NCBI RefSeq assembly: GCF_008386635.1
Contig: NZ_VUOE01000001.1
Location: forward strand, 1,178,001 to 1,242,000
DNA: 64,000 bases
Source of the DNA: Maribacter flavus
GTDB lineage: Bacteria > Bacteroidota > Bacteroidia > Flavobacteriales > Flavobacteriaceae
Direction of reading: 5' to 3'
In this document: positions 7,354-56,850 of the stretch, one piece after another
How the letters are laid out: each line of letters starts with the position of its first letter
Position numbering within the stretch: position 1 is the stretch's first letter
Program-made: the position numbers and the translations under genes
Notes under the pieces: model-generated
The model's input: only the letters and a program-made list of their open reading frames with translations
Database searches by the model: none
Told to the model about the DNA's origin: nothing

Positions 7354-7742
7354 ATACTGTAAAACCATTTTATACACATGAATCCGACAGTAACATCATG
7401 ATAAAAAAAGACAGGCAAGAAGTTACCGACTGGACTGACGACCTGGAATATATCAACGAGGAACTCGAATACCTTCTGGATATCGAAGACCGGATGCTGA
7501 ACAATGCACAACTTTATAAGCAATTACATAATATAAGACGTGAAAATCAATTAAGATTAGGCATACTTTACAGATATGAAGGTACAATGCGAAATGCCGA
7601 TGAGTGCGATACTTTGGCGTGTGATGCTTTTTATCTCCACAAACACGAAAAAAACCGCAACGAGTATTTGGCCCTTGTGAAGAAATATAGAAAAATAAAA
7701 TTGAATGTCCTATCAAAAATTCTGTCGAACTCAAAGCGATAA
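7350..7742 (+). CDS. Hypothetical helical protein coupled to the Rnk-like gene
   Basis: A 130-residue soluble protein, strongly charged and predicted to be mostly helical (DDLEYINEELEYLLDIEDRMLNN, trimmed; then long Arg/Lys/Glu runs), with two Cys in DECDTLACDAF. It begins inside the stop of the Rnk-like gene, which implies joint expression. I do not recognise a named family. It could be a small coiled-coil partner of the Rnk-like protein; this is inference from position only. Confidence 0.6.
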   Translation: MNTVKPFYTHESDSNIMIKKDRQEVTDWTDDLEYINEELEYLLDIEDRMLNNAQLYKQLHNIRRENQLRLGILYRYEGTMRNADECDTLACDAFYLHKHEKNRNEYLALVKKYRKIKLNVLSKILSNSKR

Positions 7743-7807
7743 GCTGCTTAAAATCAATTTCATATTGAGGATAACCTTTGTGCCAGCAGACCAATTTAAA
7801 GGAATTT

Positions 7808-7936
7808 ATGGACACTATTCCATGTATGGAGAGGCTTAATTTCAACTATATCAAAGCAGTACGTAGGGGACCGGAAAGTTTCGAAAAAGCCTGTTTCTCG
7901 GTATGAAACTGGGTAGAGGACAAACTTGAGGAATAG
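7808..7936 (+). pseudogene. Possible small gene broken by a TGA codon
   Basis: From the ATG at 7808 a 32-codon frame (starting MDTIPCMERLNF) stops at TGA (7904-7906), then continues in frame as NWVEDKLEE to a TAG at 7934-7936. The sequence either side of the TGA reads like one short helical protein in which a Trp codon has mutated. Too short to be certain it was ever a gene. Confidence 0.25.
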
Positions 7937-7959
7937 TAGAACTTAGTAATTCGGTCAAG

Positions 7960-8199
7960 ATGATGAGGAAAAAGAAATTGAACAGAATGTCCATGCTGCT
8001 GAGACGTCAAAAACAGAATTCCCAAACGAGACCGAATTACAATAGAATATATGATTTCTCAGATGTAATGGTCTATAGTGCGAACAGAGCATTCGAAAGG
8101 GTCAAAAAATGGATAATTCAATATGCCGTGTACATCTTAGGGGCATTGATTGCCCTAACGGTATTTGCCCTGATAATGATGTTTTGGTGGATGGTTTGA
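7960..8199 (+). CDS. Small single-span membrane protein
   Basis: A 79-residue protein with a very basic, Arg/Lys/Gln-rich first half and one strong C-terminal transmembrane helix (YAVYILGALIALTVFALIMM) ending only four residues before the stop. Predicted to sit in the inner membrane with its basic part in the cytoplasm. No family recognised. It is the last gene before the long gap that precedes the copper and nitrous oxide genes. Confidence 0.45.
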   Translation: MMRKKKLNRMSMLLRRQKQNSQTRPNYNRIYDFSDVMVYSANRAFERVKKWIIQYAVYILGALIALTVFALIMMFWWMV

Positions 8200-8814
8200 A
8201 TATTGAACTCGTCTCGAGTTCATTTAAAGGGTTCTTTACCTATTATTCCATGGACCATATCACGTACTGCAAATAAATCACAGGAAGTTTCTGTACTTAC
8301 GACCAGAAGCCTTGAGGTATTCGATTGATAGAAAGTGCAGTCTTTTGCCCCCTTGGTATGTACTCATAATCCAATTCATATTTCCATAACAAATTTGTGT
8401 GTGAATTTAAAGTGGAATAAACATATAATTTCTATCTAAGTTACGTTAAATTTACGTTGAAAATATATGATTTATACCAGATTATCTTGGCTCTTAAAAC
8501 AGTTATGAGCCACGCCTAGAGCTTAAAATTAGTATCCTGTTGTCTTTGTGTAAATAAGTTTTTGGTCAAAAATCAGGTTCCCTTTCTCTGGGCAACAACC
8601 TGTACAACTGTTTTATATAAATGAGTTATACCCTTATTTTAATGGAAGCATTTTACGTTTAGCGTAGGACATAAGACCAATGAACATTTGAGACCTTAAG
8701 GAACCGAGCAAATCGGCTTTAAAATTGTCTTATGTTTTTTCATACTAGGGATTGAAGATGGGTTTTACCATTAAATTCGTGGTAGAACCTATAAATGAGA
8801 AGTATTAAAAGTTA
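8200..8814. other. AT-rich intergenic region without visible genes
   Basis: About 600 bases with no protein-like frame on either strand and no RNA gene I recognise. It lies between the regulatory/glutamate dehydrogenase block and the copper uptake operon and ends in the promoter region of the latter. Confidence 0.5.
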
Positions 8815-8834
8815 AAAAGATATTTTTATCTTTT
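8815..8834. promoter_or_regulatory. Perfect 8-4-8 palindrome before the copper uptake operon
   Basis: AAAAGATA, four T, TATCTTTT form an exact inverted repeat, ending four bases before the FNR-like site. A similar, less perfect sequence (AAAGAC-T5-TATCCTTTT, 12958-12977) stands in the same place before the nos operon. It may be an operator for the nearby Rrf2 regulator or an AT-rich promoter element. Confidence 0.45.
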
Positions 8835-8838
8835 AATA

Positions 8839-8882
8839 TTGATATTTATCATGTTTTTGAACATGGGTGGCTTATAAATTTG
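8839..8882 (+). promoter_or_regulatory. FNR-like site and TAnnTTTG promoter of the copper uptake operon
   Basis: TTGAT-ATTT-ATCAT (8839-8852) matches nine of ten bases of the FNR consensus TTGAT-N4-ATCAA. TAAATTTG (8875-8882) fits the Bacteroidota -7 element. The palindrome centre lies 29.5 bases before the -7 element, which puts it near -42 from the expected start, the usual position for activation by FNR-type proteins. The nos operon has the same spacing. Transcription would start almost at the ATG at 8888, so the message would be nearly leaderless. Confidence 0.6.
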
Positions 8883-8887
8883 TCGCC

Positions 8888-9265
8888 ATGAAAAAAGTGG
8901 TAATTCTTTTTGTCGCGATGAACATGTTGGTCAAGCCTCTTTGGCCGGTGGCGGAATACATCATGAATTATAACTACATAGTGAACGTACTCTGTGAGAA
9001 TAAAGAAAGGCCGGAACTGAAATGTGAAGGCAAATGTTATTTGGCAAAACAGTTCGCCAAAGAGTCCAAAGAGAACGAAAAGAATCCATTTGGGGAAAAG
9101 AGTCCAACACTAGATATACTGCATGCGGTTTTCTTTAAGAAAATCTCCAACATTTTTTTGGGATTGGAAAGCCTTCAAAATACTCAGGACAATTTCTCCA
9201 ACGCACTAATATTGATTTCTTCACTTCATGTTCCTGACATTTCGGAACCGCCTGAATTGGTTTGA
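8888..9265 (+). CDS. Small exported CxGxC protein of the copper uptake operon
   Basis: A 125-residue protein with a hydrophobic N-terminus (MKKVVILFVAMNMLVKPL) likely to be a signal or anchor, then a Cys-containing motif LCENKERPELKCEGKCYLAK. Similar small proteins occur next to TonB-dependent receptors in Bacteroidota, as far as I recall without assigned function. The ATG at 8888 is preferred because an earlier start at 8867 would lie within the predicted promoter. Position directly upstream of a NosA/OprC-like receptor suggests a part in copper handling through the Cys pair. This is inference. Confidence 0.6.
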   Translation: MKKVVILFVAMNMLVKPLWPVAEYIMNYNYIVNVLCENKERPELKCEGKCYLAKQFAKESKENEKNPFGEKSPTLDILHAVFFKKISNIFLGLESLQNTQDNFSNALILISSLHVPDISEPPELV

Positions 9266-9359
9266 TGCTCGTAATCATGGATGCCACTCTTATCTGCGAC
9301 CGCATGGTAGGATTGGACACAAAGCATCCTTCTTTTAAGTCAACGTTAAATCAATTCCT

Positions 9360-11423
9360 ATGAATAGTTTTAGTATTTGGCCTTTCAACCATGTGTTAAA
9401 GTACCCAAAAATTAGTAAAATGACCTTGGTGCTATCCTACTTTTTGACCTGTTGGAATTCAACGGGACAAGAAATTCCAGTGGCAATCGACCAAGATTCC
9501 ATTTTGCCTATCAACCTAAGCGAGGTAATCGTAATTGCCTCGAACATTACACGTCTTGACCATCAAACACATCAAAAACCACTTTCTACGCTTGATGAAT
9601 ATTTGGAGTCCTCTAAGAAAGTGGCTATGGTCAAGCGAGGGGCTTATGCCTGGGAGCCTATCATCAACGACATGACTTCGGAGCGATTGGCGATTACCAT
9701 CGATGGCATGCGCATTTTTGGTGCCTGCACAGACCGTATGGATCCTATTACTTCTTATGTAGATGTTTCAAACCTCTCCAATGTGCATATTACAAGCGGT
9801 CAAAAAGGAGCTGAAATAGGGAATACCATCGGGGGGGCATTGGACATGCGATTGGAAAAGAGCGGCTTTTTGCCACTTGATTGGACGGGGTCGGTAGAAA
9901 CGGGTTTCGAGAGCAACAATAATGCACAAATTGTCGGGGGTGAATTGAACTATGCCAACGAGAATTTTTATTTGGATACGGATGTTATCTACAGGCATGC
10001 GGATAACTATATTGCAGGAGGGAGAGAAGAGGTACCCTTTTCACAATTCACCAAATATAACCTTTCCATCAATTCAGGCATAAAGGTGGCAGAAGGCGAA
10101 AAGTTACTGGTCAGTTTCATCTTTGATGAAGCCCGGGATGTTGGGTATCCTGCTTTGCCTATGGACGTATCATTGGCCAGGGCTTTTATTGGTTCCGTAA
10201 GTTGGGTTCAGGAAGATTTTTTTGGAAATCTTAACGATTGGGAAACCAAGGTCTACGCTAACTCCATTACCCATATCATGGACGATAGCCAACGCCCCGA
10301 TGTGCCCATACGAATGGATATGCCCGGATGGAGCGATACCTATGGTTATTTTTCACAGGCAAAGCTGCATAGCGGAACACACAGTTTGATGTTTAAAGTG
10401 GATGGTTTTTACAACCGTTCTTTGGCTGAAATGACCATGTATCCCAACAATCCAAGTGAAGCCTCAATGTTCATGTTAACCTGGCCAGATGTACGCACAC
10501 TGAACACGGGCATGTATGCTAGGGACATCATGAGCATTGAAAAAAGTACTTTGACACTTTCGGCGCGATTGGCCGTTCAAGGTTTTAATATCGCCGATGA
10601 ATTCGGATTGAACAGTTTGCGCATTTTCTACCCGGAAATGGACCGAGGACAAACACGGTTTCTAAAAAGCTTTTCGGCACGGCATCAAAAAAATCTAGGA
10701 AAGTTGGAGCTTACTAACAGTCTTTCCTATGGTAACAGGGCGCCATCGGTCTCAGAAGGTTTTGGCTTCTACTTATTCAACAGTTTTGACAACCATGATT
10801 ATATAGGTGACCCAAACCTAGAAAATGAGAGTGCCGTAGAGGCAACCACAAAGGTGTTATTTCCTTTCGAAAAACTTACTATTGGGATGGAGGGAAACTT
10901 CTTTCATACCAGAAACTTCATCATTGGTGAAATCGAACCAAGTCTCAGCACCATGACCATTGGTGCCGAAGGGGTGAAAATCTACAAAAATTTGAAGTAC
11001 GCCAATCTGTACAACATTGCAGTGGACGGCACCTACGAAATCACCAAAGAGCTGCAATGGAATGGTCTGGTATCCTACCACCGTGGGGTCGATAAGAGCG
11101 GAAGAAACCTACCGTTCATTAGTCCTTTGACCTATAACACTGGCCTGCAATACACCAGCCCCAAATTTTCCATGTCACTAACCCTTAGGGGGTCTGCGGA
11201 TCAAGTGAACTTCAATCCTGAATTTGGGGAAGACCGTACGGATGCGTTCAACGTGGTATCCCTTTCCCTAGGAAAAACCTTCAAGGTCAACAATGACAAT
11301 GTATACCTAAAAGCCGGGGTAGATAATGTCTTTGACACGTTCTATTCTACCTATACGGATTGGAACAACATCCCAAGGATGGGCCGCAATATGTATATGA
11401 CCCTATCCTATGATATCAATTAA
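9360..11423 (+). CDS. TonB-dependent outer membrane copper receptor (NosA/OprC-like)
   Basis: A 687-residue TonB-dependent receptor: signal region to about residue 37, plug domain with the IDGMRIFGACTDRMDP segment, then a 22-strand-type barrel ending LSYDIN. NosA and OprC import copper through the outer membrane, and OprC binds it with Cys and Met in a CxxxM motif; here C123-T-D-R-M127 gives the same arrangement within a closely similar MDP context. Extra Met-rich loops (SLAEMTMY, SMFMLTW) suit copper binding. It lacks the N-terminal carboxypeptidase-regulatory domain of the other receptors in the window. A start at 9420 is possible and would give a shorter signal peptide. It lies just upstream of the copper-dependent nosZ operon. 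Confidence 0.85.
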   Translation: MNSFSIWPFNHVLKYPKISKMTLVLSYFLTCWNSTGQEIPVAIDQDSILPINLSEVIVIASNITRLDHQTHQKPLSTLDEYLESSKKVAMVKRGAYAWEPIINDMTSERLAITIDGMRIFGACTDRMDPITSYVDVSNLSNVHITSGQKGAEIGNTIGGALDMRLEKSGFLPLDWTGSVETGFESNNNAQIVGGELNYANENFYLDTDVIYRHADNYIAGGREEVPFSQFTKYNLSINSGIKVAEGEKLLVSFIFDEARDVGYPALPMDVSLARAFIGSVSWVQEDFFGNLNDWETKVYANSITHIMDDSQRPDVPIRMDMPGWSDTYGYFSQAKLHSGTHSLMFKVDGFYNRSLAEMTMYPNNPSEASMFMLTWPDVRTLNTGMYARDIMSIEKSTLTLSARLAVQGFNIADEFGLNSLRIFYPEMDRGQTRFLKSFSARHQKNLGKLELTNSLSYGNRAPSVSEGFGFYLFNSFDNHDYIGDPNLENESAVEATTKVLFPFEKLTIGMEGNFFHTRNFIIGEIEPSLSTMTIGAEGVKIYKNLKYANLYNIAVDGTYEITKELQWNGLVSYHRGVDKSGRNLPFISPLTYNTGLQYTSPKFSMSLTLRGSADQVNFNPEFGEDRTDAFNVVSLSLGKTFKVNNDNVYLKAGVDNVFDTFYSTYTDWNNIPRMGRNMYMTLSYDIN

Positions 11424-11469
11424 TGAAATTTTAAATAAATCGATTTCCAACAATAAAAAAAATATAATC

Positions 11470-12321
11470 ATGAAAACTATAAAGTCAATTTTTACGTCTC
11501 TTCTTTTGATTTCAACACTTATTTCGTGTACCGAGGATAACGATGAGCCCATGGTTGAAACTAACCCACTCGAGTCCTACAATTTACTAACAGCCATTGA
11601 TGCCAACGGCCATACCCTTGAAGTATACTCGGAACAAAACCAATACACCATAGGTTACAACGAACTTTACTTTAGGATTAAGGATAACGTCGAGGGTAGT
11701 TACATTGAAAATGCCAACCTATCCATGACCCCTATAATGAATATGGAGATGATGTCGCACTCATGTCCAAAATCGGCTATCACGAAAACAGAAGATTCTT
11801 CGGTATATAAAGGATATAGCATTTTTCAAATGCCAGGAAACGCTACCGAATATTGGGACTTGAACCTTGAATATACTATCGCTGGACAAACATACAACCT
11901 CTCGGAACGCATTGAGGTAATAGCTCCCGCCGATGGCAAAAAACGGGTCAATGTTTTCACAGGCACGGACGAAACCCGATACGTCTTGGCCATGATGCCC
12001 ATGACTCCAGATGTTATGGTCAATGACTTCTCTGCCTTGCTTTTTAAGATGGAGACTATGATGAATTTTCCGGCAGTTGAAGAATACACCATTGAAATTG
12101 ATCCTCGAATGCCAGGTATGGGCAACCATAGTTCGCCCAGCAATGAAGATTTAACCTTTGACACTGCTGCCAAAATGTACAAAGGAAAACTATCATTGAC
12201 CATGACCGGGTATTGGAAAATCAACCTTAAAGTGAAAAATGCTTTGGGGGAAGTCTTAAAAGGTGAGGATGTTACAGAAGAAAACGAAGCTAGCTCACTT
12301 TATTTTGAGTTGGAGTTCTAA
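11470..12321 (+). CDS. Met/His-rich lipoprotein with two YtkA/FixH-like domains
   Basis: A 283-residue lipoprotein (lipobox LISTLISC). Two similar beta-rich halves each end in a segment like YKGYSIFQMPGNATEYWDL and YKGKLSLTMTGYWKINL, typical of YtkA/FixH-like folds. Met and His clusters (SMTPIMNMEMMSHSC, MMPMTP, MPGMGNHSS) are suited to binding copper. The ATG at 11470 sits just before the signal peptide; the open frame upstream overlaps the receptor gene. Position directly after the copper receptor suggests it takes copper from the receptor or passes it to NosL/NosZ. That role is inferred. Confidence 0.7.
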   Translation: MKTIKSIFTSLLLISTLISCTEDNDEPMVETNPLESYNLLTAIDANGHTLEVYSEQNQYTIGYNELYFRIKDNVEGSYIENANLSMTPIMNMEMMSHSCPKSAITKTEDSSVYKGYSIFQMPGNATEYWDLNLEYTIAGQTYNLSERIEVIAPADGKKRVNVFTGTDETRYVLAMMPMTPDVMVNDFSALLFKMETMMNFPAVEEYTIEIDPRMPGMGNHSSPSNEDLTFDTAAKMYKGKLSLTMTGYWKINLKVKNALGEVLKGEDVTEENEASSLYFELEF

Positions 12322-45292: not shown

Positions 45293-48200
45293 ATGAAAAT
45301 TTTTCCAAACTACGTAGCCTTTTGGACTAGTAAGTCAATTGATTGCCTTGCTTTTGTTATGATTGTATGTTTTTCATCATTTACGGTACTAACGGCCCAG
45401 ACCACGGTTTCTGGAACCGTTAAATCATCTGTGGATGGCTTGCCCTTGCCCGGGGTTTCTATTATTGACACAAGTAACCCTACAAGAGGTGTTCAAGCGG
45501 ATTTTGACGGTAACTACTCCATTAATTTGGATGATTCTAATACAAGTTTACGATTCAGCTATATAGGTTTCAAAACATTAACAGTGCCCGTAAATGGTCA
45601 ATCTACTATAAACGTATCCTTGGAGGAAGATGTTGCCAGTCTTGAGGAAGTAGTTGTCGTTGGATATGGAACACAGAAAAAAACGACGGTGACAGGTGCC
45701 GTAACAGGTGTACAAGGGCCCGTTTTGGAAGCATCGCCGGCGATAAGCGTTTCCAACTCCTTGGCAGGAAGGCTACCTGGTGTGGTCATAATACAAACCA
45801 GTGGAGAGCCAGGAAATGACGAATCTTCAATAAATATTCGTGGTACCAACACTCTGGGAAACAATCAACCTCTTGTAGTTATTGATGGAATACCCGACAG
45901 AGATGGAGGAATTGGACGAATAAACCCTGAGGACATTGAGAATATTTCCGTTTTAAAAGATGCGTCAGCAGCCATTTATGGGGCAAGGGCAGCGAATGGA
46001 GCTATCATTGTTACAACAAAAAGAGGAAGACAAGGTAAAATGCAGCTAAACTATAAGGCAGACTTTGGACTTACCCGGCCTACAAGAGTACCTGAAATGT
46101 CAAATGCAGTAGAATACCTTACCATTATGAACGAATTGACCATTTTTAATAGTAATATCCCAGTAAATGAGTGGTCCGCTGCAAATACGGCCTTACAAAC
46201 AAACGGAAGCTATACAATTCCTGGCACCGGCGAAACGGTGAACGCGGCATTTAGTCCTGAAACCGTCAATGGTCATAGAACAAATGCCGACCCTTGGTTA
46301 TACCCAGATACCGATTGGTTTGGTGATACTTTCCAAGATTGGGCGGAGCAACAGCGACATAACCTAACGATCAGCGGAGGTGGGGATGCACTTACATATT
46401 TCGCCTCATTAGGGTATGCAGACCAAGGAGCCATATATAAAAATTCAGCAAACCGCTATCAACAATACAATTTCAGGATAAATACGGAGGCCAAAATCAA
46501 CGATTACATCACTACAAAACTGGACATGGGCTATCGAAAAGAAGATAGAACCTTTCCTACGGAGGGAGCGGGAGCCATATTTAGAATGCTAATGCGTGGT
46601 AGACCTAATGAACCCGCTATTTGGCCCAACGGTTTGCCTGGACCCGATATTGAAAACGGTCAACAACCGGTCGTAGTTACGACCAATGCTACAGGATATG
46701 ACAAGCAGCCTACGGATTACCTTCAGTTTACAGGGTCAGTAGATATAAAAAATCCTTGGATAGATGGCTTAAAGTTAACGTTATTGGCAGGAGTAGATCA
46801 AAGCCAACAAAGAAGAAAACTCTGGCAAACACCCTGGGAACTCTTCTCTTTGGACAGGGCCAGATACATAGAAACTGGTGAACCCGTCTTGAGCGGTACC
46901 ATACGATCTAACTTTACGGACCCTAGACTTACCCAATCCTCTTTAAACGTATTAAATACGAACCTCACGGCAATCTTCAACTATGATAGGACATTTGGCG
47001 ACGACCACACCATAAACGTCTTGGCAGGTGTAACCAGGGAAAATTTTCAAGGAGAATTCCTCTCGGCGTTCAGAAGAAATTTCCTTTCAGATGCCGTAGA
47101 TCAAATAGGCGTTGGTGGTGAAGTGGGCCAAGAAACCGATGGCTTTGGATATAACAGGACTCGACTTGGTTACTATGGAAGGGCTCAATACAACTTTAAG
47201 GAAAAATATTTGGCTGAGTTCATATGGAGATACGACGGATCTTACATCTTTCCTGGTGAGGACAGGTTTGGTTTCTTTCCAGGGTTTTTGGCCGGTTGGA
47301 ACATTAGCAACGAAGAATGGTTTAATGTAAAGGGAATCGATTATTTAAAACTAAGAGGTTCTTATGGACAAATGGGTAATGACCAAGTCTTTTTTAACAA
47401 TGATTTACAAGAATATGCGTATTTATCCATTTATGATTTTGGCCAATATCCTATTGATGGAATTGTACAGACTACGCTTACGGAACCTTTATTGGCGAAT
47501 CCAAGCTTTACTTGGGAACGGGCGAACAATTTCAACCTTGGTTTGGACGGTATAGTTCTTGATGGAAAATTAAGTTTTACCTTGGAATACTTTTTAAACA
47601 AACGAGATCAAATCTTAATTCAGGAAACGGGTTCAACACCTGGCTCATCGGGTATTGCAGACCTTTTACCGCCAGTAAATGCTGGTGAGGTAGACAATGA
47701 AGGTTTTGAGTTTGCCCTGAATTATTATGGTGGCAACCCCGATGGCTTCAAATGGGACGTAGGTTTCAATGGAGGCTATGCCCAGAATACCGTGGTATTC
47801 TTGGATGAAATTCCCGGCGCACCGGAGTATCAATTACAGGAGGGAAAACCCATAGGCTCCTATCTCGTATACGAATCAGACGGAGTATTCCGAGATGAAG
47901 CGGAAATAGCAGCCAACACCTTGGATTATAGCGCGGTAAAACCTCAATTGGAACCTGGTGACATGAAATTTAGAGACGTAAATGGGGACGGTGTAATTAA
48001 TGACCTTGACCAAGTACGATTAAATAATAGTATCAATCCATTGTTCAACTTTGGTATAACTTTCAACGCCTCCTACAAAAACTTTGATCTTGCCGTATTG
48101 TTTCAAGGTGCAACGGGAGCCAAGCTACCCATTCAAACGGAATCAGGAGACATTGGAAATTTCCTAAAATATAGTTTCGATAATCGTTGGAGCCCAGAGA

Positions 48201-48511
48201 ACCCTAGTAGCGAGCATCCTAGACTGGCAAGTAGAGGAGATACATACTACACCGGAGGTGATTTTGGAAATAACACTTATTTTTTATTCAGCAAGGACTA
48301 CATACGATTGAAAAACGTGCAATTGGCCTATAATTTTCCTAGTAAACTTATAGATACTTTCGGTATATCAGGCTTCAGAGTATATGTAAGCGGCCTAAAT
48401 CTAGCCACTTGGGCGGCCCAAGATATATACGATCCGGAGTCTACTACGACCAATGGCCAGTTTTACCCGCAACAATCGATAATAAATACAGGATTCAGTT
48501 TAACCTTTTAA
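45293..48511 (+). CDS. SusC-like TonB-dependent receptor
   Basis: A 1072-residue SusC/RagA receptor: signal peptide, CarboxypepD_reg domain (VSGTVKSSVDGLPLPGVSI), TonB box (EEVVVVGYGTQKK), plug (LVVIDGIPDRDGGIGRINPED) and large barrel ending NTGFSLTF. With the SusD protein encoded next it forms a lidded importer for large molecules such as glycans or peptides. No glycoside hydrolase is encoded nearby; the neighbours are FG-GAP and haloperoxidase-type proteins, so the substrate may not be a simple polysaccharide. Confidence 0.95.
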   Translation: MKIFPNYVAFWTSKSIDCLAFVMIVCFSSFTVLTAQTTVSGTVKSSVDGLPLPGVSIIDTSNPTRGVQADFDGNYSINLDDSNTSLRFSYIGFKTLTVPVNGQSTINVSLEEDVASLEEVVVVGYGTQKKTTVTGAVTGVQGPVLEASPAISVSNSLAGRLPGVVIIQTSGEPGNDESSINIRGTNTLGNNQPLVVIDGIPDRDGGIGRINPEDIENISVLKDASAAIYGARAANGAIIVTTKRGRQGKMQLNYKADFGLTRPTRVPEMSNAVEYLTIMNELTIFNSNIPVNEWSAANTALQTNGSYTIPGTGETVNAAFSPETVNGHRTNADPWLYPDTDWFGDTFQDWAEQQRHNLTISGGGDALTYFASLGYADQGAIYKNSANRYQQYNFRINTEAKINDYITTKLDMGYRKEDRTFPTEGAGAIFRMLMRGRPNEPAIWPNGLPGPDIENGQQPVVVTTNATGYDKQPTDYLQFTGSVDIKNPWIDGLKLTLLAGVDQSQQRRKLWQTPWELFSLDRARYIETGEPVLSGTIRSNFTDPRLTQSSLNVLNTNLTAIFNYDRTFGDDHTINVLAGVTRENFQGEFLSAFRRNFLSDAVDQIGVGGEVGQETDGFGYNRTRLGYYGRAQYNFKEKYLAEFIWRYDGSYIFPGEDRFGFFPGFLAGWNISNEEWFNVKGIDYLKLRGSYGQMGNDQVFFNNDLQEYAYLSIYDFGQYPIDGIVQTTLTEPLLANPSFTWERANNFNLGLDGIVLDGKLSFTLEYFLNKRDQILIQETGSTPGSSGIADLLPPVNAGEVDNEGFEFALNYYGGNPDGFKWDVGFNGGYAQNTVVFLDEIPGAPEYQLQEGKPIGSYLVYESDGVFRDEAEIAANTLDYSAVKPQLEPGDMKFRDVNGDGVINDLDQVRLNNSINPLFNFGITFNASYKNFDLAVLFQGATGAKLPIQTESGDIGNFLKYSFDNRWSPENPSSEHPRLASRGDTYYTGGDFGNNTYFLFSKDYIRLKNVQLAYNFPSKLIDTFGISGFRVYVSGLNLATWAAQDIYDPESTTTNGQFYPQQSIINTGFSLTF

Positions 48512-48519
48512 AAATCGTT

Positions 48520-50397
48520 ATGAAAAAAAGAAAAATTGTTTTATTGGGCCTTGTAATGGCAGCAATGATTCCGCTGTCGTGTAACGAGGACTTTTTGGAG
48601 ACACAACCGCTTGATTCAATTTCTGCGGATGCTACTTGGGCCGATGGGGCTTTGTCCCAAGCCTTCGTATTCAATGTATATTCATTTTTGGGATATGGTG
48701 GCTTTGAAGAAGAAGCGCTCGCCTCTATAACGGATGAGGCCATGTTCACCCACTCGGGAAGAAACATCAACGTTATAACCGAAGGGTCTCTCTCACCGGC
48801 GGCTGCTGGAAATAACAGGATTGTTCCGCAATGGGACGAATTATATCTCGCTATTCGACAGGCAAATATAGCCATCCAAGAACTTCCAGAGTCAACTTTT
48901 GAAGATGAAACCTTGAGGGATAGGCTCTTGGGCGAATCTTTATTTCTTAGGGCCTATTATTACCATCAACTAATGCGCTACTATGGTGGAGCCCCCTTGA
49001 TAGATCGCCCGTATGGTCTTAATGAAGACTATTCCGTGGCCAGAAATACATATGCGGAAAACGTAGATTTCGTTGTAGCGGACTTGGATAGGGCCATAAA
49101 CCTTCTGGACGGTAAGGAATTTACCCCCGGCAGGGCCTCAAAATTAAGTGCTATGGGTTTAAAATCAAGAGTCTTGCTGTATGCAGCTAGTGATTTAAGA
49201 GATGGGCCCACGGCAACTGCCAGGTCCCAAGCACATGCTGGATACTCCAATATTGAGTTGGTTGCTTATCCTTCTGGAGATAGAATGCAACGTTGGAATG
49301 CCGCGAAGAATGCTGCCAAGGCACTGTTGGATGAAACAAGTGGTTATAAACTGAACCTATCGAGCCCTGTTACCCCAGAGGAAGGAACTCAAAATTATAT
49401 TTCCATGGCCATGGGTGGTGGTAGTGCAGTAGGTGATCCAGCGGCTAGATCGGAGCTTTTGTTCGAGCGTACACATACACCTTTATTCACGGTAGAAAGT
49501 AATTGGCCCTTGGGAGGAATCCACCAGGGCATAAATAATGGGCCCAATGGATATTATAACTGGGCCGGTAACACACCTATACAACAACTAGTGGACGACT
49601 ACCAAATGATGGATGGAAGCGACTTTGATTGGAACGATCCAGAACATGCTTCGGCACCTTTCGAAAATCGTGATCCCAGAATGTATGGAACAATCTTGTA
49701 TGATGGTGCTGGCTGGAAACCTAGACCTGCGGCAGTAGCAATAATCGATCCTTTTGACGAAATTCAAACTGGTAGCTACGATGATGGATCGGGTGGAATC
49801 ATTCCAGGTGTAGATACGAGAAATTCGCCAATTGAAAATTGGAATGGTAGCAGAACAGGCTATTACGTACGAAAATTCATTGATCCAGACCCGGCGGTGG
49901 TGGATAATCAATCCAGTGCGCAGGTAGTCCCTTGGCCATTTATAAGATATACCGAAATTGTATTAAATTACGTAGAATCATGTATCGCCACGGGTGATGA
50001 CGGAGAAGCCCTGAACTGGTTGAACAAAATAAGATTTAGGGCCGGGATGCCCGCACTGAGTTCCTCTGGAACAGAACTGCTGGAAGACTATATCAACGAA
50101 AGAAGAGTGGAACTAGCTTATGAAGAACATAGATATCATGACGCAAGAAGATGGATGATTGCAGAAGAGACCTTGGGCAGAGGTATAAAAGTAATGAGGG
50201 TTAATGCAACACTGAAGCCTGGTGCTACTCCCCTTTCACCTTATAGGAAGGACACTACCGTCTATGATTACGAATACAATGTAATCGATAATACGGATAA
50301 TGAAACAAGGACATGGGACGATAAAATGTATTTCATGCCTCTAAGTAGGAACGAAATAAACCGTAATGAATTGCTGATACAAAACCCGGGTTATTGA
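48520..50397 (+). CDS. SusD-like surface lipoprotein
   Basis: A 625-residue RagB/SusD lipoprotein (lipobox ending IPLSC), with FLETQPLDSIS at the mature N-terminus, TPR-like helices (ESLFLRAYYYHQLMRYYGG) and the C-terminal conserved ERRVELAYEEHRYHDARRW. It captures the ligand and acts as the lid of the SusC channel. The start at 48520 is 8 bases after the susC stop; the longer open frame overlaps susC and is not used. Ends before a strong hairpin. Confidence 0.95.
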   Translation: MKKRKIVLLGLVMAAMIPLSCNEDFLETQPLDSISADATWADGALSQAFVFNVYSFLGYGGFEEEALASITDEAMFTHSGRNINVITEGSLSPAAAGNNRIVPQWDELYLAIRQANIAIQELPESTFEDETLRDRLLGESLFLRAYYYHQLMRYYGGAPLIDRPYGLNEDYSVARNTYAENVDFVVADLDRAINLLDGKEFTPGRASKLSAMGLKSRVLLYAASDLRDGPTATARSQAHAGYSNIELVAYPSGDRMQRWNAAKNAAKALLDETSGYKLNLSSPVTPEEGTQNYISMAMGGGSAVGDPAARSELLFERTHTPLFTVESNWPLGGIHQGINNGPNGYYNWAGNTPIQQLVDDYQMMDGSDFDWNDPEHASAPFENRDPRMYGTILYDGAGWKPRPAAVAIIDPFDEIQTGSYDDGSGGIIPGVDTRNSPIENWNGSRTGYYVRKFIDPDPAVVDNQSSAQVVPWPFIRYTEIVLNYVESCIATGDDGEALNWLNKIRFRAGMPALSSSGTELLEDYINERRVELAYEEHRYHDARRWMIAEETLGRGIKVMRVNATLKPGATPLSPYRKDTTVYDYEYNVIDNTDNETRTWDDKMYFMPLSRNEINRNELLIQNPGY

Positions 50398-50416
50398 TCA
50401 ATTGGTAATTCTTTAG

Positions 50417-50450
50417 AAAATCTATCCCTTCGCGGGGATAGATTTTTTAT
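50417..50450 (+). terminator. Terminator or attenuator after susD
   Basis: AAAATCTATCCC (50417-50428) pairs exactly with GGGATAGATTTT (50435-50446), closing a six-base loop and followed by more T. It lies only 10 bases before the next start codon, so it probably reduces expression of the downstream genes relative to susCD rather than ending the operon completely. Confidence 0.8.
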
Positions 50451-50459
50451 TTTAGGGAT

Positions 50460-53400
50460 ATGCTTCAAAATAAAAAAATACCGCTAATTTTTCTCATAAT
50501 TTCCTTAATTGGGTGCGAGCAACCAAAGGAAAAAGATGTTTTGAATACCCCAAATTCCCAAAAAACGGAGCTAACCCTGTTTGATCTACTTTCACCGGAA
50601 AGTACCAATATTCATTTTCAAAATACTCTTAAGGAAGGACTTAACGCCAACGTACTTGTATATGAATACCTTTATAATGGAGGTGGAGTTGCCGTGGGAG
50701 ATTTCAACGGTGATAACCTTGAAGACATCTATTTGACCTCGAATATGGGGGAAAACAAGTTCTATATCAACTTAGGTGATTTAAAGTTTAAGGAAGTTTC
50801 CCAAGTATCAAAAGTGCTAGGAAGAGAAGGGCCGTGGAAAACGGGGGTCAGCGTAGCCGATGTTAATGGTGACGGCAAGCTCGATTTATATCTTTGCTAT
50901 TCTGGTGCACTACCAGAGGAAAAAAGAAGGAATCAGCTTTTTATAAATCAGGGAAATAACGTGGAAAACATCCCTGTTTTTAAGGAAGAAGCTCAAAAAT
51001 ACGGACTTGATAGTCCAGCGTACAGCAATCAGGGCTATTTCTTTGATTACGATAAAGATGGGGATTTGGACATGCTGTTGTTAAACCATAGTCCCAAATC
51101 CCTACCTGTATTAAATGAAGTTCTCACAAAGGATATTTTAAAGAAGGACGACCCGTTACAGGGACTGAGGTTATATAGACAGGATAATGGTAGTTTTAAG
51201 GATGTTACCAAAACAAGCGGTTTAAATGGATCAGGGCTGAGTTACGGCCTAGGGATAGGTATAAGCGACATAAATAACGACGGCTTATTGGATTTCTATG
51301 TTTCCAACGATTATGCCATACCAGACTACCTATACATTAATAATGGTGACGGCACCTTTAAAGATCAACTTAAATCCCAATTAGGCCACACCAGCCATTT
51401 CTCTATGGGCAATTCTATTGCCGATATTAACAACGATGGTCTTCAGGACATCTATACACTGGATATGTTACCAGAGGACAACAAAAGACAAAAGCTTTTG
51501 CTCTCTCCCGATAACTACGAAAAATTCGACCTTAATATCCGTAGCGGTTTCCATTATCAATATATGCGTAATATGCTGCATCTAAATAACGGAAATAACA
51601 GCTTTAGTGAAATAGGACAGTTATCAGGAATATCCAACACAGATTGGAGCTGGGCCCCTTTATTGGCCGATTTTGATAATGATGGGTTCAAAGATCTTTT
51701 TGTTACAAACGGTTACTACAGAGACTATACCAATTTGGATTTTATAAATTATATGGAAGATTTTGTACAATCCAAAGGGCGTTTAAAAAGACAGGATGTT
51801 TTGGAGCTAATTGAGCAAATGCCTTCATCAGACCTTACCAATTATTATTTTTCCAATAATAACGGAATTTCCTTTACCAATAATACCAAGAACGCGGGTA
51901 TTCTTCATCCTTCGAATAGTAATGGGGCATCCTATGCCGATTTGGACAATGATGGTGATTTAGAATTGATCGTCAACAATATCAATAAAACCGCCTTTGT
52001 TTATGAAAATATTTCCGAAAAAACAGAAAACACCTTTCTGAGAGTAAAGTTGAAAGGGGAAGATAAAAATACACAAGGTATCGGTTCAAAAGTTAGCGTT
52101 TATTCTAATGGCCTTGTTCAGGTTCTTGAACAAATACCTAACCGTGGTTATCTTTCAACAGTATCCCAAGTACTGCATTTTGGGGTTGGCGATTCGACTA
52201 CTATCGACTCCTTAACTGTACGTTGGAATTCAGGTAAAGTTGAAACCCAATATGATGTAAAGGGCAATTCAACAATCCTTTTAAATGAGGCGGATGCCAG
52301 AAATACAAAAAACATCCAGAAGAAAAACAATCAATTTTTTCAGATAACCTCAAGCCTGGTTGATTACACCAACAAAGCCTCAAACATAAACGACTTTAAA
52401 AGACAATCGTTGCTTCCCAAGCAAATATCACATAGAAGTCCGGCCATGGAGATGAGAGATTTTAACAATGATGGTTTGGAAGACCTTATAATAGGTGGTG
52501 GGGTGGGACAGCAAACTTCGTTATTCCTACAGCAAAAAAATGGGAAAATGATAGGGAAAAATATTCCCGATTTTTCATTGGACACTCAAAGTCTAGATAC
52601 CGATATTTCCGTCTCAGATTTTGATAAGGACGGCAATTTGGATATTTACATTGCCAGCGGCGGATATCACAACTTCAATCCAAATGACATACATTTTCAA
52701 GATAGAATTTATCTTGGTGATGGAATGGGAGGATTTAAAAAGAATAATAAGGCTCTCCCCCAACTATTAGAAAATACTAGTACCATTGCTATAGGTGATA
52801 TCAATAATGATTCCCATCCGGATATTTTTGTTGGAGGAGGAATTCTACCGGGGAGATACCCCGAGACTTCGCCAAATTATATATTAGTAAATGATGGAAA
52901 TGGAAAATTCCAAATTGGGGATGACGCTAACAATGAGATTTTAAAAATTCCAGGCTTGGTAACAGATGCTAAGTTCGCGGATATTAATGGAGATGGTGCC
53001 CTTGATCTCTTTGTTGTTGGAGAATGGACGCCCATAAGTATTTTCATAAACCATAACGGAAACTTTAAGAACGAAACCTCATCTTACTTCAATAAAGAAT
53101 ATAAGGGTTTATGGACTACCATTGAAATTCAAGATATTAATAATGATGGTCGTTTAGATATTGTCGCTGGTAATTTAGGAACCAATATCCAATTCAAAAT
53201 AGATGAGGAACATCCTGCGACCCTTGTATATGATGATTTTGACAAAAACGGCGCCATTGATCCTATTCTAAATTTTTATGTAGGTGAAACCAGTTACCCA
53301 TATCTTACAAGGGATGAGCTTTTAGGGCAACTTGCATACTTAAAACAAAAATATACCAGCTACGAAGACTATTCAGGGGCTAAGCTCACAGATATATTTT

Positions 53401-53801
53401 CAGAAGAAGTACTATCAAGTGCACATAAATTAAACGTAAATTTTACGGAAAATTCGCTCTTTATAAATAATAGAACTGGGCAATTCGAGAAGTCACAGTT
53501 ACCCATTCAGGCCCAGTTTTCACCTATCTCAAAAATCTTGATCCATGATTTTGACAATAATGGCTTGAAAGATCTACTATTACTAGGAAATGATGATTAT
53601 TATAAGTTAAGAATTGGAAAATTTGATGCTAATTACGGAACCTTACTTCTTCAAGATACTCAGGGCGGGTTTAAGTATATCCCTCAAAACCAGTCCGGCC
53701 TGGATATCAGGGGTAGTCAGGTAAATGGTGTACTTATGAATGACAATCTTTTGATCCAAGCCTATGGAAAACCATTGGAGACCTATAAACTAGTGAATTA
53801 A
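50460..53801 (+). CDS. Giant FG-GAP/VCBS repeat lipoprotein with ASPIC/UnbV domain
   Basis: A 1113-residue lipoprotein (lipobox SLIGC). It holds many FG-GAP/VCBS blades with Ca-binding loops (DVNGDGKLD, DYDKDGDLD, DINNDGLLD, DFDNDGFKD), an ASPIC/UnbV domain in the middle (FGVGDSTTIDSLTVRWNSG) and a second set of blades after it. These propellers bind glycans or proteins on the cell surface; ASPIC domains occur in CRTAC1-type proteins. Placed after SusCD and before the haloperoxidase-type gene. The function is not established. Confidence 0.88.
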   Translation: MLQNKKIPLIFLIISLIGCEQPKEKDVLNTPNSQKTELTLFDLLSPESTNIHFQNTLKEGLNANVLVYEYLYNGGGVAVGDFNGDNLEDIYLTSNMGENKFYINLGDLKFKEVSQVSKVLGREGPWKTGVSVADVNGDGKLDLYLCYSGALPEEKRRNQLFINQGNNVENIPVFKEEAQKYGLDSPAYSNQGYFFDYDKDGDLDMLLLNHSPKSLPVLNEVLTKDILKKDDPLQGLRLYRQDNGSFKDVTKTSGLNGSGLSYGLGIGISDINNDGLLDFYVSNDYAIPDYLYINNGDGTFKDQLKSQLGHTSHFSMGNSIADINNDGLQDIYTLDMLPEDNKRQKLLLSPDNYEKFDLNIRSGFHYQYMRNMLHLNNGNNSFSEIGQLSGISNTDWSWAPLLADFDNDGFKDLFVTNGYYRDYTNLDFINYMEDFVQSKGRLKRQDVLELIEQMPSSDLTNYYFSNNNGISFTNNTKNAGILHPSNSNGASYADLDNDGDLELIVNNINKTAFVYENISEKTENTFLRVKLKGEDKNTQGIGSKVSVYSNGLVQVLEQIPNRGYLSTVSQVLHFGVGDSTTIDSLTVRWNSGKVETQYDVKGNSTILLNEADARNTKNIQKKNNQFFQITSSLVDYTNKASNINDFKRQSLLPKQISHRSPAMEMRDFNNDGLEDLIIGGGVGQQTSLFLQQKNGKMIGKNIPDFSLDTQSLDTDISVSDFDKDGNLDIYIASGGYHNFNPNDIHFQDRIYLGDGMGGFKKNNKALPQLLENTSTIAIGDINNDSHPDIFVGGGILPGRYPETSPNYILVNDGNGKFQIGDDANNEILKIPGLVTDAKFADINGDGALDLFVVGEWTPISIFINHNGNFKNETSSYFNKEYKGLWTTIEIQDINNDGRLDIVAGNLGTNIQFKIDEEHPATLVYDDFDKNGAIDPILNFYVGETSYPYLTRDELLGQLAYLKQKYTSYEDYSGAKLTDIFSEEVLSSAHKLNVNFTENSLFINNRTGQFEKSQLPIQAQFSPISKILIHDFDNNGLKDLLLLGNDDYYKLRIGKFDANYGTLLLQDTQGGFKYIPQNQSGLDIRGSQVNGVLMNDNLLIQAYGKPLETYKLVN

Positions 53802-53803
53802 CC

Positions 53804-55159
53804 ATGTTTCGAAAAAGATACTACAGGCATCTCATAATCTTACTGGTGGGAATTACTTTTTTTGCCATTATAGGGTGCGAAAATCAACCGAAACCGGCAC
53901 CTCTTAAACCTAATGAAGTAGCGATAGCCTGGGCAAAATTAACTTTGTTCATAACCCAACATACACCATCCAATTCACCAACTTTTGCCTCACGAGCCTT
54001 TGGTTACATTGGTCTAACTATGTATGAAAGTGTTGTTCACGGATACGAGGATTACCATAGTCTAGAGGGACAACTAAACGAATTGGAGAGTTTACCCAAA
54101 CCAGATACCGAAAAGCAATACGATTGGGTACTTTCCCTAAATGCTGCTCAAGCATCCATATTAAGGGATATTTATATACAAACTTCGGAGGAAAATGTCC
54201 TAAAAATTGATTCTCTGGAGCGCCGAATTTATGAACAATATTCCAAAAACCTAAAGGAGGATATGGTTACCAATTCCATTTCTTTTGGAAAGGAGGTGGC
54301 CCAAGCCATCTTTGAATGGTCCAAGACAGATGGTGGACACAGAGGTTATCTGCATAATTTCGATAAAGAAATTATACATCCGGATTTTCCCGGTTCATGG
54401 AAGCCTCCTCTTTTTGCACAATCATTCAGTCATCATCCCTTACATCCACATTGGGGGGAAAATAGAACTTTTGTATCGGCAAATGCAGAAGTTGAGGACC
54501 CTGAATTTTTACCATATGACACAGTCCCTGGCTCTCCTTATTACAAGCAGTTTGAGGCCGTTTATAAAAAGGAACGTGAACTTACCAGAGCGGAAAAAGA
54601 ATCAGCCATCTGGTGGGGAGATGATCCGGATGTTTCTTTTACCCCTCCAGGCCATTCCTATTACATTGCTACACTAGCTGCGGAATCCAGCGGGGCCGAT
54701 TTAATCACAGTGGCAAAAGCCTATGCACAAACAGGTATTTCGGTGGCGGATGCGTTTATTGAGTGTTGGAAGTGGAAATATGCCTTCTTTACCGAAAGAC
54801 CCAATACGTTCGTCCCTAAATATATTGATGAGGAGTGGGAGTCCTTTTGGCCAGACCCTCCCTTTCCTGCATTCCCCTCGGGGCATGCCATACAGGCGGC
54901 GGCTGCCGCCACGGCCCTAGAAGACAATTATGGGACAAATTTCAAATTTACGGATAGGGCCCATGAAGGAAGGGAAAGAGATAAGGTGAGGGATACTGAT
55001 TTTACCATTCGGAGCTTTGACTCCTTCTGGGAAGCTGCCCAAGAAACTGCGGATTCGCGTTTTTATGGGGGCATACACACTCCTATTGACAATGAAGTTG
55101 GACTTGCCAAAGGTGTAGAAATTGCAACCAATGTGAACAATCTAAAATGGAAAAATTGA
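53804..55159 (+). CDS. Vanadium-dependent haloperoxidase-type lipoprotein (PAP2 superfamily)
   Basis: A 451-residue lipoprotein (lipobox AIIGC, Cys25). The complete vanadate/phosphate-binding signature is present: K325-x6-R332-P333, P358-S-G-H361, S418-R419-x5-H425. Length and the helical layout fit vanadium haloperoxidases and related acid phosphatases of Bacteroidota. It would oxidise halides (bromide or iodide) with peroxide, or act as a phosphatase; the sequence cannot decide. Being surface-anchored and encoded with SusCD and two FG-GAP/ASPIC proteins, it may alter a large ligand outside the cell. It overlaps the next gene by 13 bases. Confidence 0.85.
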   Translation: MFRKRYYRHLIILLVGITFFAIIGCENQPKPAPLKPNEVAIAWAKLTLFITQHTPSNSPTFASRAFGYIGLTMYESVVHGYEDYHSLEGQLNELESLPKPDTEKQYDWVLSLNAAQASILRDIYIQTSEENVLKIDSLERRIYEQYSKNLKEDMVTNSISFGKEVAQAIFEWSKTDGGHRGYLHNFDKEIIHPDFPGSWKPPLFAQSFSHHPLHPHWGENRTFVSANAEVEDPEFLPYDTVPGSPYYKQFEAVYKKERELTRAEKESAIWWGDDPDVSFTPPGHSYYIATLAAESSGADLITVAKAYAQTGISVADAFIECWKWKYAFFTERPNTFVPKYIDEEWESFWPDPPFPAFPSGHAIQAAAAATALEDNYGTNFKFTDRAHEGRERDKVRDTDFTIRSFDSFWEAAQETADSRFYGGIHTPIDNEVGLAKGVEIATNVNNLKWKN

Positions 55160-56850
55160 GAATACATCTTGTATTGACACTTCGAATTCTCATACTATGC
55201 ATCTTTGTCTTTCCTTATGCCAACACAAAGGGGCAAAACGTTTTTAAGGATGTGACCGATTCCGCCGGTATTGACCACAAATATAAAGTGTACGAAGGTA
55301 CCTTTGGTGGGGGCGCTACCGTGTTTGACTTGAACAACGATGGTTACGAAGACGTCTTTATTACAGGTGGCATGAATTCAGATGCATTGTACCTTAACCT
55401 AGGAAATGGAAAATTTAAGGATATATACGCATCATCTGGTTTGGGAAAATCCAATCTATATGTTACACAAGGGGCTGCCAGTGCGGATGTGAATCGGGAC
55501 GGGTTTAGAGACCTTTTTATAACCACTATTACCACCACTGATGGTTCCAATAAAATCCCAAGAGCGGAAAATCTTCTTTTTCTGAATAATGGGGATTCAA
55601 CTTTTAGGGATGCTACCAAAGACTATGGTTTGGATGACCTCAATTCCTTTAGCACCGGTATTAGTTTTGGGGATATCAATGCGGATGGCTTTCCAGATGT
55701 TTTCATCGGCAACTATTTTCAAGAATTCAAGGGAAAACTAGGAATTATAAAAGATGCAACCATTGTAAGTGCCAATCAAACGGCTAAAAGTTACCTTTTG
55801 CTAAACAAAAATGGAGAAAAATTTGAGGATGTTTACGAGTCTTATGGCCTAGGTCATAAAGGATTTGGATTTGGTGGTGTATTTACTGATTTTGATAATG
55901 ATCAAGACCAAGACCTATTGGTAAATCAAGATTTTGGATATAAGGCAGTACCCAATTTTCTATATGAAAATGAGTATCCTTGGCCATCCTTCCGTGATGC
56001 CAGTGCCGAAACCGGAATGGATTTAACCATAAACGCCATGGGATCAGCTGTTGGGGATTATAATGGGGATGGTTGGATGGACTATTATGTCACCAATATC
56101 AAATTCAATTGGTTAATGGAAAACCAAGGGAAGGGAAAGCCCTTTGTAGATAGGGCAAAGGAATTGGGGACCTATAATCTGGCAATAAGCTGGGGTGCCA
56201 ATTTCGCGGATTTTGATCACGATATGGATTTGGACCTTTTCGTATCCAATGGTGACTTGAACCCTAATTGTACACCCATGGGAAACTTCTACTTTGAGAA
56301 CCAAGAAAATAAGTTCGTTGAACGTGGAAGGGAACTTGAGGTGAATGATTATGGCATTGGAAGGGGCTCTGTACTTTTTGATATGGACAATGATGGAGAT
56401 CAAGATTTATTGGTAGTGAACCAAATCCCCATTTTAGATTATCCCATAGAATCAGCTACAAAATTGTTCAGAAATGATATTTCAAATGGCAATTGGCTGA
56501 AGGTTGCCTTAAAAGGGATGTCCTCCGAAACTTCAGGTATAGGTTCTAGAGTAACTGTAATTGCAAATAGCAAAAAATTGATTAGGGAAATAGACGGAGG
56601 AGGATCTAGTCATCTATCCCAGAATTCCGTTATAAGTCATTTCGGATTGGGAAATAGCACAAAAGTAGATTCCATTATCGTGGATTGGACAGGGGGTAAT
56701 CGACAAATACTCCTAAATCAAAATGTGAATCAATCCCTAACCATAACTGAAACGGAGCAAAGTAGTTTCAAATGGTATGTTGCAATTTTTATATCTATTG
56801 TAGCTTTAATGGCTCGGTACATCCTAGTTAAAAGGAAAAAACCGCTTTAA
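55147..56850 (+). CDS. FG-GAP/ASPIC-UnbV protein with C-terminal membrane helix
   Basis: A 567-residue protein with a signal peptide (ending NTKGQ), FG-GAP blades (DLNNDGYEDVFI, DVNRDGFRDLFI, DYNGDGWMDYYV, DMDNDGDQDLLV), an ASPIC/UnbV domain (FGLGNSTKVDSIIVDW) and a C-terminal transmembrane helix (VAIFISIVALMARYILV) with a basic end. It is a CRTAC1-like surface protein, here anchored at the C-terminus, unlike its lipid-anchored relative at 50460. The 13-base overlap with the haloperoxidase-type gene implies coupled translation. Confidence 0.87.
   Translation: MEKLRIHLVLTLRILILCIFVFPYANTKGQNVFKDVTDSAGIDHKYKVYEGTFGGGATVFDLNNDGYEDVFITGGMNSDALYLNLGNGKFKDIYASSGLGKSNLYVTQGAASADVNRDGFRDLFITTITTTDGSNKIPRAENLLFLNNGDSTFRDATKDYGLDDLNSFSTGISFGDINADGFPDVFIGNYFQEFKGKLGIIKDATIVSANQTAKSYLLLNKNGEKFEDVYESYGLGHKGFGFGGVFTDFDNDQDQDLLVNQDFGYKAVPNFLYENEYPWPSFRDASAETGMDLTINAMGSAVGDYNGDGWMDYYVTNIKFNWLMENQGKGKPFVDRAKELGTYNLAISWGANFADFDHDMDLDLFVSNGDLNPNCTPMGNFYFENQENKFVERGRELEVNDYGIGRGSVLFDMDNDGDQDLLVVNQIPILDYPIESATKLFRNDISNGNWLKVALKGMSSETSGIGSRVTVIANSKKLIREIDGGGSSHLSQNSVISHFGLGNSTKVDSIIVDWTGGNRQILLNQNVNQSLTITETEQSSFKWYVAIFISIVALMARYILVKRKKPL

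Follow-up and report, generated by a model that had tools for sequence, protein, structure and literature searches.

Results

The window analysed here is a stretch of 64,000 nucleotides of the 4.3 Mb genome of Maribacter flavus (G000:C1:1178001-1242000), in which five genes lie head to tail on the + strand, spaced by 11, 62, 2 and -13 bases, and end in a putative vanadium haloperoxidase (VHPO) and a protein resembling animal CRTAC1. Gene families were assigned with Pfam and NCBIfam profiles. The first gene (45293..48511) encodes a SusC-type TonB-dependent outer-membrane importer of 1072 aa (TIGR04056 at 878.8 bits, TIGR04057 and Plug), and the second (48523..50397) a SusD lipoprotein of 624 aa with an ATG start and a lipobox Cys followed by the acidic stretch NEDFLE (PF07980 at 182.9 bits, PF14322). 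They are followed by a long FG-GAP/ASPIC lipoprotein of 1113 aa, here called FG1 (50460..53801), with nine FG-GAP_3 stretches and UnbV_ASPIC at 540-606; by the VHPO-type lipoprotein of 451 aa (53804..55159); and by FG2 (55147..56850), a single-propeller FG-GAP/ASPIC protein of 567 aa that matches FG-GAP_3 and UnbV_ASPIC. The first-pass annotation, made from the sequence alone, had read the same five genes in line, and coordinates, strand and families agree with it.

As it had also stated, the operon carries no polysaccharide-degrading enzyme: no Pfam or NCBIfam match to one was found at E <= 0.01 among the five genes, and no glycan-active enzyme in these, the upstream polyprenyl synthetase gene and the two downstream genes scanned. 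Like a polysaccharide utilisation locus (PUL), the operon is headed by a SusC-SusD pair and has an accessory lipoprotein. It is therefore PUL-like, yet it has no hydrolase, and its last two products are an enzyme of the peroxidase type and a CRTAC1-like protein.

PAP2 (36 bits) is the sole Pfam family over its cut-off in the window VHPO. The VCPO_N profile stays under its cut-off (21.6 against 29.3 bits), but this profile describes the chloroperoxidase type and does not define all VHPOs. The complete vanadate-binding signature reported by the first-pass annotation is present, and its residues (K325, R332, P333, S359, G360, H361, R419 and H425) are invariant in 12/12 aligned homologues. A phmmer search against PDB sequences returned one distinct match, the iodoperoxidase of Zobellia galactanivorans (4cit, E 1.8e-52). 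The AlphaFold2 (AF2) model (pLDDT 84.0, pTM 0.84, poor at residues 179-213) had 4cit and 4usz of the same enzyme as best Foldseek matches (4cit TMq 0.79, E 6e-23), followed by Curvularia chloroperoxidase, NapH3, XhnO11 and bacterial chloroperoxidases. All of the first 17 rows were VHPOs, VHPO homologues or a vanadate-binding halogenase, and the match spans both halves of the two-half helical VHPO fold. Acid phosphatases appeared from E 7e-4 only, with TMq about 0.3 and about half of the protein covered, and the window protein does not have the single-domain PhoN/PhoC-type fold of PAP2 acid phosphatases.

In the tree the window VHPO falls outside the clade of 4cit, in a separate set of 26 rows (support 100), and 4cit groups instead with a second VHPO paralogue of the genus (copy in the window genome at G000:C1:1980255). 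By sequence, the window enzyme is thus a VHPO-type protein of a distinct clade, whose nearest characterised relative is the Zobellia iodoperoxidase; our statements on the latter enzyme rest on PDB titles, alignments and citing passages. The two share the fold and the vanadate-site residues and differ in a motif, YTSGHS in the Zobellia enzyme against FPSGHA in the window. One genome searched (G036) is probably a Zobellia, its VHPO being 97.9% identical to 4cit over 434 residues, and this copy is 31% identical to the window enzyme. Three FG1-type genes lie directly upstream of it, so the association of haloperoxidases with FG-GAP/ASPIC genes reaches a near-identical relative of the crystallised iodoperoxidase; in contrast with the window, this locus has no FG2, and SusC was not found in the next 12 kb. 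Both the window VHPO and 4cit have a Trp three residues before the active-site Lys. According to passages of one report, such a Trp occurs in chlorinating enzymes too (PMC11871015), and therefore it does not settle the halide preference.

The gene order held wherever the region could be read in the genus. At a threshold of E <= 1e-130, 22 of the 36 genus genomes searched (the window genome included) have an orthologue of the VHPO, and the five-gene order is kept in all 20 regions fetched; the one orthologue outside these (G024) sits on a contig of 5.1 kb, on which SusD, FG1 and the VHPO can be read. In one genome (G009:C1:98001-118000, L028) the operon is present as a near-identical copy, several genes of which have broken frames, probably a sequence or assembly error. 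Of 299 genomes drawn from the family, eight (the window genome included) gave a match at E <= 1e-60, one of them (G345) at 38% identity only. Four were new close relatives, all with the order kept and one region cut by a contig end; two of these regions coincide with the records L080 and L086 of the wider scan described below. Conserved gene order, whose absence in relatives the first-pass annotation had named as refuting its proposal, is thus found.

For a wider view we scanned one genome per species in 84,980 species and kept the VHPO loci of the best 80 of at least 579 confirmed relatives. The resulting tree holds 106 proteins, 105 labelled rows and 4cit. The clade of the window enzyme has 22 rows from across Bacteroidota, with Maribacter and Croceivirga (Flavobacteriaceae) among its named members; in 20 rows the enzyme lies between an upstream FG1 and a downstream FG2, and in two there is FG2 without FG1. 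All five genes were seen in 16 of the 22, four loci are cut upstream and two read SusC-SusD-VHPO-FG2. In Proteobacteria FG2 also accompanies the enzyme, without SusCD: downstream in 28/28 alphaproteobacterial rows and upstream in 6/6 rows of Comamonadaceae. Among iodoperoxidase-type rows, FG1 lies within 700 bases upstream in 11 of 15 and about 1.1 kb upstream in two more. Taken together, the gene neighbourhoods indicate that the conserved unit is VHPO plus FG2. In a separate observation, Runella limosa (L098, 8485-11410) has two VHPO-type genes in tandem.

The distribution of the two ASPIC types within genomes points in the same direction. A PF07593 search of the window genome found seven ASPIC genes, FG2 and six long FG1-type genes. 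Five of the seven fall in two of the three VHPO-like loci of this genome, so their proximity exceeds chance; the 20 kb fetched around the third, distant VHPO-like gene (C2:994918, L061) contain neither an FG1- nor an FG2-type gene. Each of the six FG1-type genes follows a SusC-SusD pair; they are spread over four operons, and starch- or xylan-type enzyme genes adjoin two of these. The contrast drawn earlier with hydrolase-bearing SusCD loci holds for the window operon. FG2-type proteins adjoin a VHPO with or without SusCD, and in 18/18 proteobacterial genomes searched (of 34 loci; ranges compared by hand) the single ASPIC gene found is sited in the VHPO locus. These patterns suggest that FG2 is the partner of the peroxidase and that FG1 is rather an accessory of SusCD.

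The three other FG1-bearing loci have contexts of their own. The second VHPO locus (G000:C1:1980255-2000000; L048, L068) reads SusC-SusD-FG1-FG1-FG1-VHPO, with a 4cit-type enzyme; LacI, GH65 and alpha-amylase genes lie beyond SusC. In another (G000:C1:956001-976000, L191), SusC-SusD-FG1 is convergent with GH10, transporter-like and GH43 genes, likely a xylan locus. In the last (G000:C4:66001-86000, L192), SusC-SusD-FG1 is followed by a gene (6988-8517) for a 509-aa protein that has CxxCH and FG-GAP repeats, possibly a further redox link of FG-GAP genes.

The AF2 model of FG2 (pLDDT 88.5) has murine CRTAC1 (PDB 9etn) as its best Foldseek match (E 4.4e-32), and FG2 shows the CRTAC1-like arrangement of an FG-GAP propeller followed by ASPIC. 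It differs from the murine protein in being bacterial, in the peroxidase gene beside its own, and in a histidine, H489, where CRTAC1 has Tyr. For FG1, a possible analogue is BtuG, a propeller. BtuG lipoproteins sit on BtuB as surface lipoproteins paired with a TonB-dependent importer, according to PMC10404256; there the ligand is vitamin B12. In one Bacteroidota genome (L200, 3261-18754), five near-tandem genes of 834-874 aa match the FG2 profile built here.

Numbered as in the window FG2, residues Y190, R406 and H489 are present in the alignment in 53/53 VHPO-adjacent, 9/9 DHOR-adjacent and 4/4 MauG-adjacent proteins, and also in two Bacteroidota relatives, L193 and L194. H489 is the most specific of the three. 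It occurs in 68/68 peroxidase-adjacent FG2-type proteins examined and in one of 10 ASPIC-type proteins without a peroxidase neighbour, the other nine having Tyr or Phe; the exception (L179) groups with the DHOR set and adjoins a ROK gene. At this position FG1 has His in 0/13 and Tyr or Phe in 13/13. Y190 and R406 are both found in L195, which has no peroxidase neighbour. The FG2-like gene of that locus (7184-12176), with Tyr for H489, stands between two sulfatase genes. The H489 pattern may reflect one event of shared ancestry rather than repeated selection. From the repeat spacing, M298, W349 and R406 probably stand at the start of successive blades and line the centre of the propeller.

The peroxidase beside FG2 can be of another kind. 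ASPIC genes, 74 in all, occur in 67 of the 151 genomes searched in the GTDB family of Rhizobium rosettiformans, and a close VHPO (E <= 1e-160) in 20, with distant ones in five more. All 20 have an ASPIC gene (hypergeometric 1.4e-8), adjacent in 19; in the other, G845, the two are on different contigs, the VHPO close to the end of its own. Taking neighbours up to 3.5 kb away, 19 of the 74 ASPIC genes have a VHPO, 38 a DHOR-like gene, always on the same strand, and five a CCP_MauG gene, one of these on the same strand; the rough chance expectation is 0.3% (from estimated match totals). The DHOR-like matches are mostly weak and to the C-terminal part of DHOR. Only one genome (G867) has both the VHPO and the di-haem kind of locus. 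Among 13 di-haem loci fetched, the neighbour has two CxxCH motifs in 11; L181 has one, its gene being truncated at the edge of the locus, and for L185, whose gene extends beyond the locus, none was found. Pfam identified DHOR or CCP_MauG in 8/8 of the neighbours scanned, and ROK genes were recognised beside 4/4 ASPIC loci scanned (L174, L177, L179, L182).

The same exchange is seen in Bacteroidota, of which 395 genomes were drawn. All four FG2 proteins of at least 58% identity (the window's own included) adjoin a VHPO there, and the next relatives, from two genomes of one genus (G502 and G414, 47-49% identity), lie in loci L193 and L194, which read SusC-SusD-CCP_MauG lipoprotein-FG2, with two CxxCH motifs in each CCP_MauG protein. 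As judged from these gene orders, one operon position is filled by either a vanadium or a haem enzyme. Characterised members of both kinds use H2O2, and therefore a peroxidase is favoured over a phosphatase for the window VHPO. A comparable arrangement appears in gene clusters of hydrazine-synthase homologues, where passages of PMC12758564 describe a CRTAC1 family gene with FG-GAP repeats beside the genes for homologue subunits (a propeller plus a di-haem part), whose haem parts are compared there with cytochrome c peroxidase and MauG. These are other enzymes, and the passages mention neither haloperoxidase nor SusCD, but they are in line with the peroxidase/FG2 pattern.

Sugar genes surround a large part of the proteobacterial loci. 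Six xylose-type clusters were scored (ATP-binding cassette (ABC) ATPase, permease, binding protein, ROK, xylulokinase and xylose isomerase), a call requiring at least two nearby; cluster identity rests on one representative each, those of XylA, XylB and XylF being over NCBIfam cut-offs. Such genes are near 18 of the 34 proteobacterial loci (12/28 alphaproteobacterial, 6/6 Comamonadaceae) and near 0/28 VHPO loci without ASPIC. The VHPO/FG2 module is tied to sugar uptake by these genes in Proteobacteria and by SusCD in Bacteroidota.

As to cellular location, acidic residues follow the lipid Cys in the signals for surface export demonstrated or predicted for three species of the phylum, according to passages of PMC5080379. 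The acidic-minus-basic mean after the lipid Cys is 2.35 for SusD (34/35 scored) and 0.19 for the VHPO (37/38), but it is -0.79 for FG1 (34/37), and since FG1, like the VHPO, has no acidic run, the criterion is weak. FG2 proteins of the window clade start with a stretch resembling a signal peptide, and their C-terminal end is a hydrophobic helix with a basic tail, taken by eye as a membrane anchor; proteobacterial FG2 is without this helix, and several alphaproteobacterial VHPOs have twin-arginine-like starts (also by eye). The FG2 relatives in L193 and L194 have sorting tails of the type IX secretion system (T9SS) over the cut-off and are probably sent to the surface. From these features, the window-clade enzyme seems somewhat more apt to face the periplasm.

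The operon is flanked by the polyprenyl synthetase gene, on the opposite strand, and by a gene for an extracytoplasmic function (ECF) sigma factor 752 bases downstream. In the 20 genus regions a TolC-like gene is present in all and the ECF sigma factor gene in part, and no link of either to the VHPO/FG2 module was found there. Scans for sigma-70 promoters and terminators gave no more matches than in shuffles.

Discussion

By sequence, the pairing of VHPO and FG2 is conserved, FG2-type genes elsewhere lie beside di-haem peroxidase-like genes instead, and the context is one of sugar genes. We consider it reasonably probable that the two proteins form a sugar-linked peroxidase module outside the cytoplasm, which in the window organism was grafted onto a SusCD importer. 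The VHPO-type enzyme would use H2O2 and, by analogy with its closest solved relative, probably a halide too, making an oxidant. FG2 would be its dedicated partner, whose task is most likely to hold the substrate or present it. In the window organism the SusCD importer, with FG1 as accessory lipoprotein, would bring in the ligand; in Proteobacteria the module would act alone or near genes of xylose uptake and catabolism. Use of H2O2, contact between VHPO and FG2, and an enzyme that faces the periplasm and not the outside are what we infer, and the substrate is possibly a carbohydrate or carbohydrate-linked, perhaps aromatic, compound.

Several observations weigh against this interpretation. No VHPO orthologue was found in 14 of the 36 genus genomes, some of which are incomplete, and the proteobacterial loci are a similarity-picked sample, the best 80 of at least 579. 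In the iodoperoxidase-type loci read, FG1 is present and FG2 absent, and 38 of the 105 labelled VHPO rows have no adjoining ASPIC gene, so the enzyme family does not need ASPIC. Xylose-type genes are near 0/16 Bacteroidota loci with both FG1 and FG2, and therefore the context does not point to the ligand of the window-type loci. In the Rhizobium family, four of the five CCP_MauG neighbours lie on the opposite strand to the ASPIC gene and 12 of the 74 ASPIC genes have no VHPO, DHOR-like or CCP_MauG neighbour. In the midpoint-rooted ASPIC tree, built with its long branches kept, Bacteroidota and proteobacterial FG2 do not group together. Finally, the operon encodes no source of H2O2.

The first-pass annotation proposed that a cell-surface oxidase or phosphatase acts on a large ligand, which an oxidase would halogenate or oxidise ahead of import by SusCD. 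The haloperoxidase type is supported by the fold; the surface location is doubtful, and we regard a surface oxidase as unlikely. In its favour, the enzyme shares an operon with SusCD in the window clade, and the T9SS tails of L193 and L194 suggest that FG2 is surface-bound at least there. The VHPO, however, has no acidic run like that of SusD, in a test that FG1 shows not to be clean, window FG2 ends in a hydrophobic helix, and the proteobacterial modules read have no SusCD at all.

A second possibility concerns what the peroxidase oxidises. MauG builds the protein-derived cofactor of methylamine dehydrogenase, and by the same logic a VHPO or di-haem enzyme might oxidise residues of FG2 into such a cofactor, with the matured FG2 then acting on the imported sugar. 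The tight pairing, the fact that two peroxidases of unrelated fold (one MauG-like) can take each other's place, and the residues Y190, M298, W349, H489 and W514, oxidisable and invariant in 53/53 VHPO-adjacent proteins, would all suit it, as would the near-restriction of H489 to proteins with a peroxidase neighbour. But M298, W349 and W514 are also present in 13/13 FG1, which follow SusCD with or without a peroxidase, and we know of no VHPO that makes a cofactor. We therefore find this maturation improbable, as we do its general form, in which H489-type bacterial CRTAC1-like proteins would be partners of exchangeable vanadium or di-haem peroxidases that mature a propeller cofactor for oxidising sugars imported by SusCD or ABC systems.

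A PAP2-type phosphatase that dephosphorylates the ligand is very unlikely. The catalytic motifs of VHPOs are common to acid phosphatases, PAP2 is the one Pfam family recognised, and the title of the Curvularia entry 3bb0 describes apo-chloroperoxidase crystallised while catalysing dephosphorylation, by analogy with which such chemistry may be compatible with the fold. Against it, Foldseek ranks VHPOs far ahead of acid phosphatases, the nearest solved relative is named an iodoperoxidase in its PDB titles, and FG2-type proteins elsewhere adjoin di-haem peroxidase-like genes. We also discarded the idea of a mere PUL plus housekeeping phosphatase, given the fold and the conservation of the genes.

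The first-pass annotation held the role of ASPIC propellers beside haloperoxidases to be, to its knowledge, undescribed, and we found no paper on the pairing: the open-access literature, outside which subscription papers mostly lie, gave none on haloperoxidase with CRTAC1 or FG-GAP, on ASPIC with FG-GAP and SusD, or on di-heme peroxidase with FG-GAP, and for 'CRTAC1 family protein' the hydrazine-synthase study was the only one found. Broader searches brought up nothing about the pairing among the titles listed. On the genomic evidence, the pairing of VHPO and CRTAC1-like proteins is real, conserved and wider than first noted; its mechanism is the part that we infer.

To our knowledge, most bacterial haloperoxidases, and likewise CRTAC1-like proteins, have no assigned physiological role. 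The conserved pairing, its haem substitute in some genomes and a diagnostic histidine give these two groups of proteins a shared context, one that links oxidative chemistry to the import of sugars, in marine as well as soil bacteria, and that may give a lead on the role of the CRTAC1 fold in animals.

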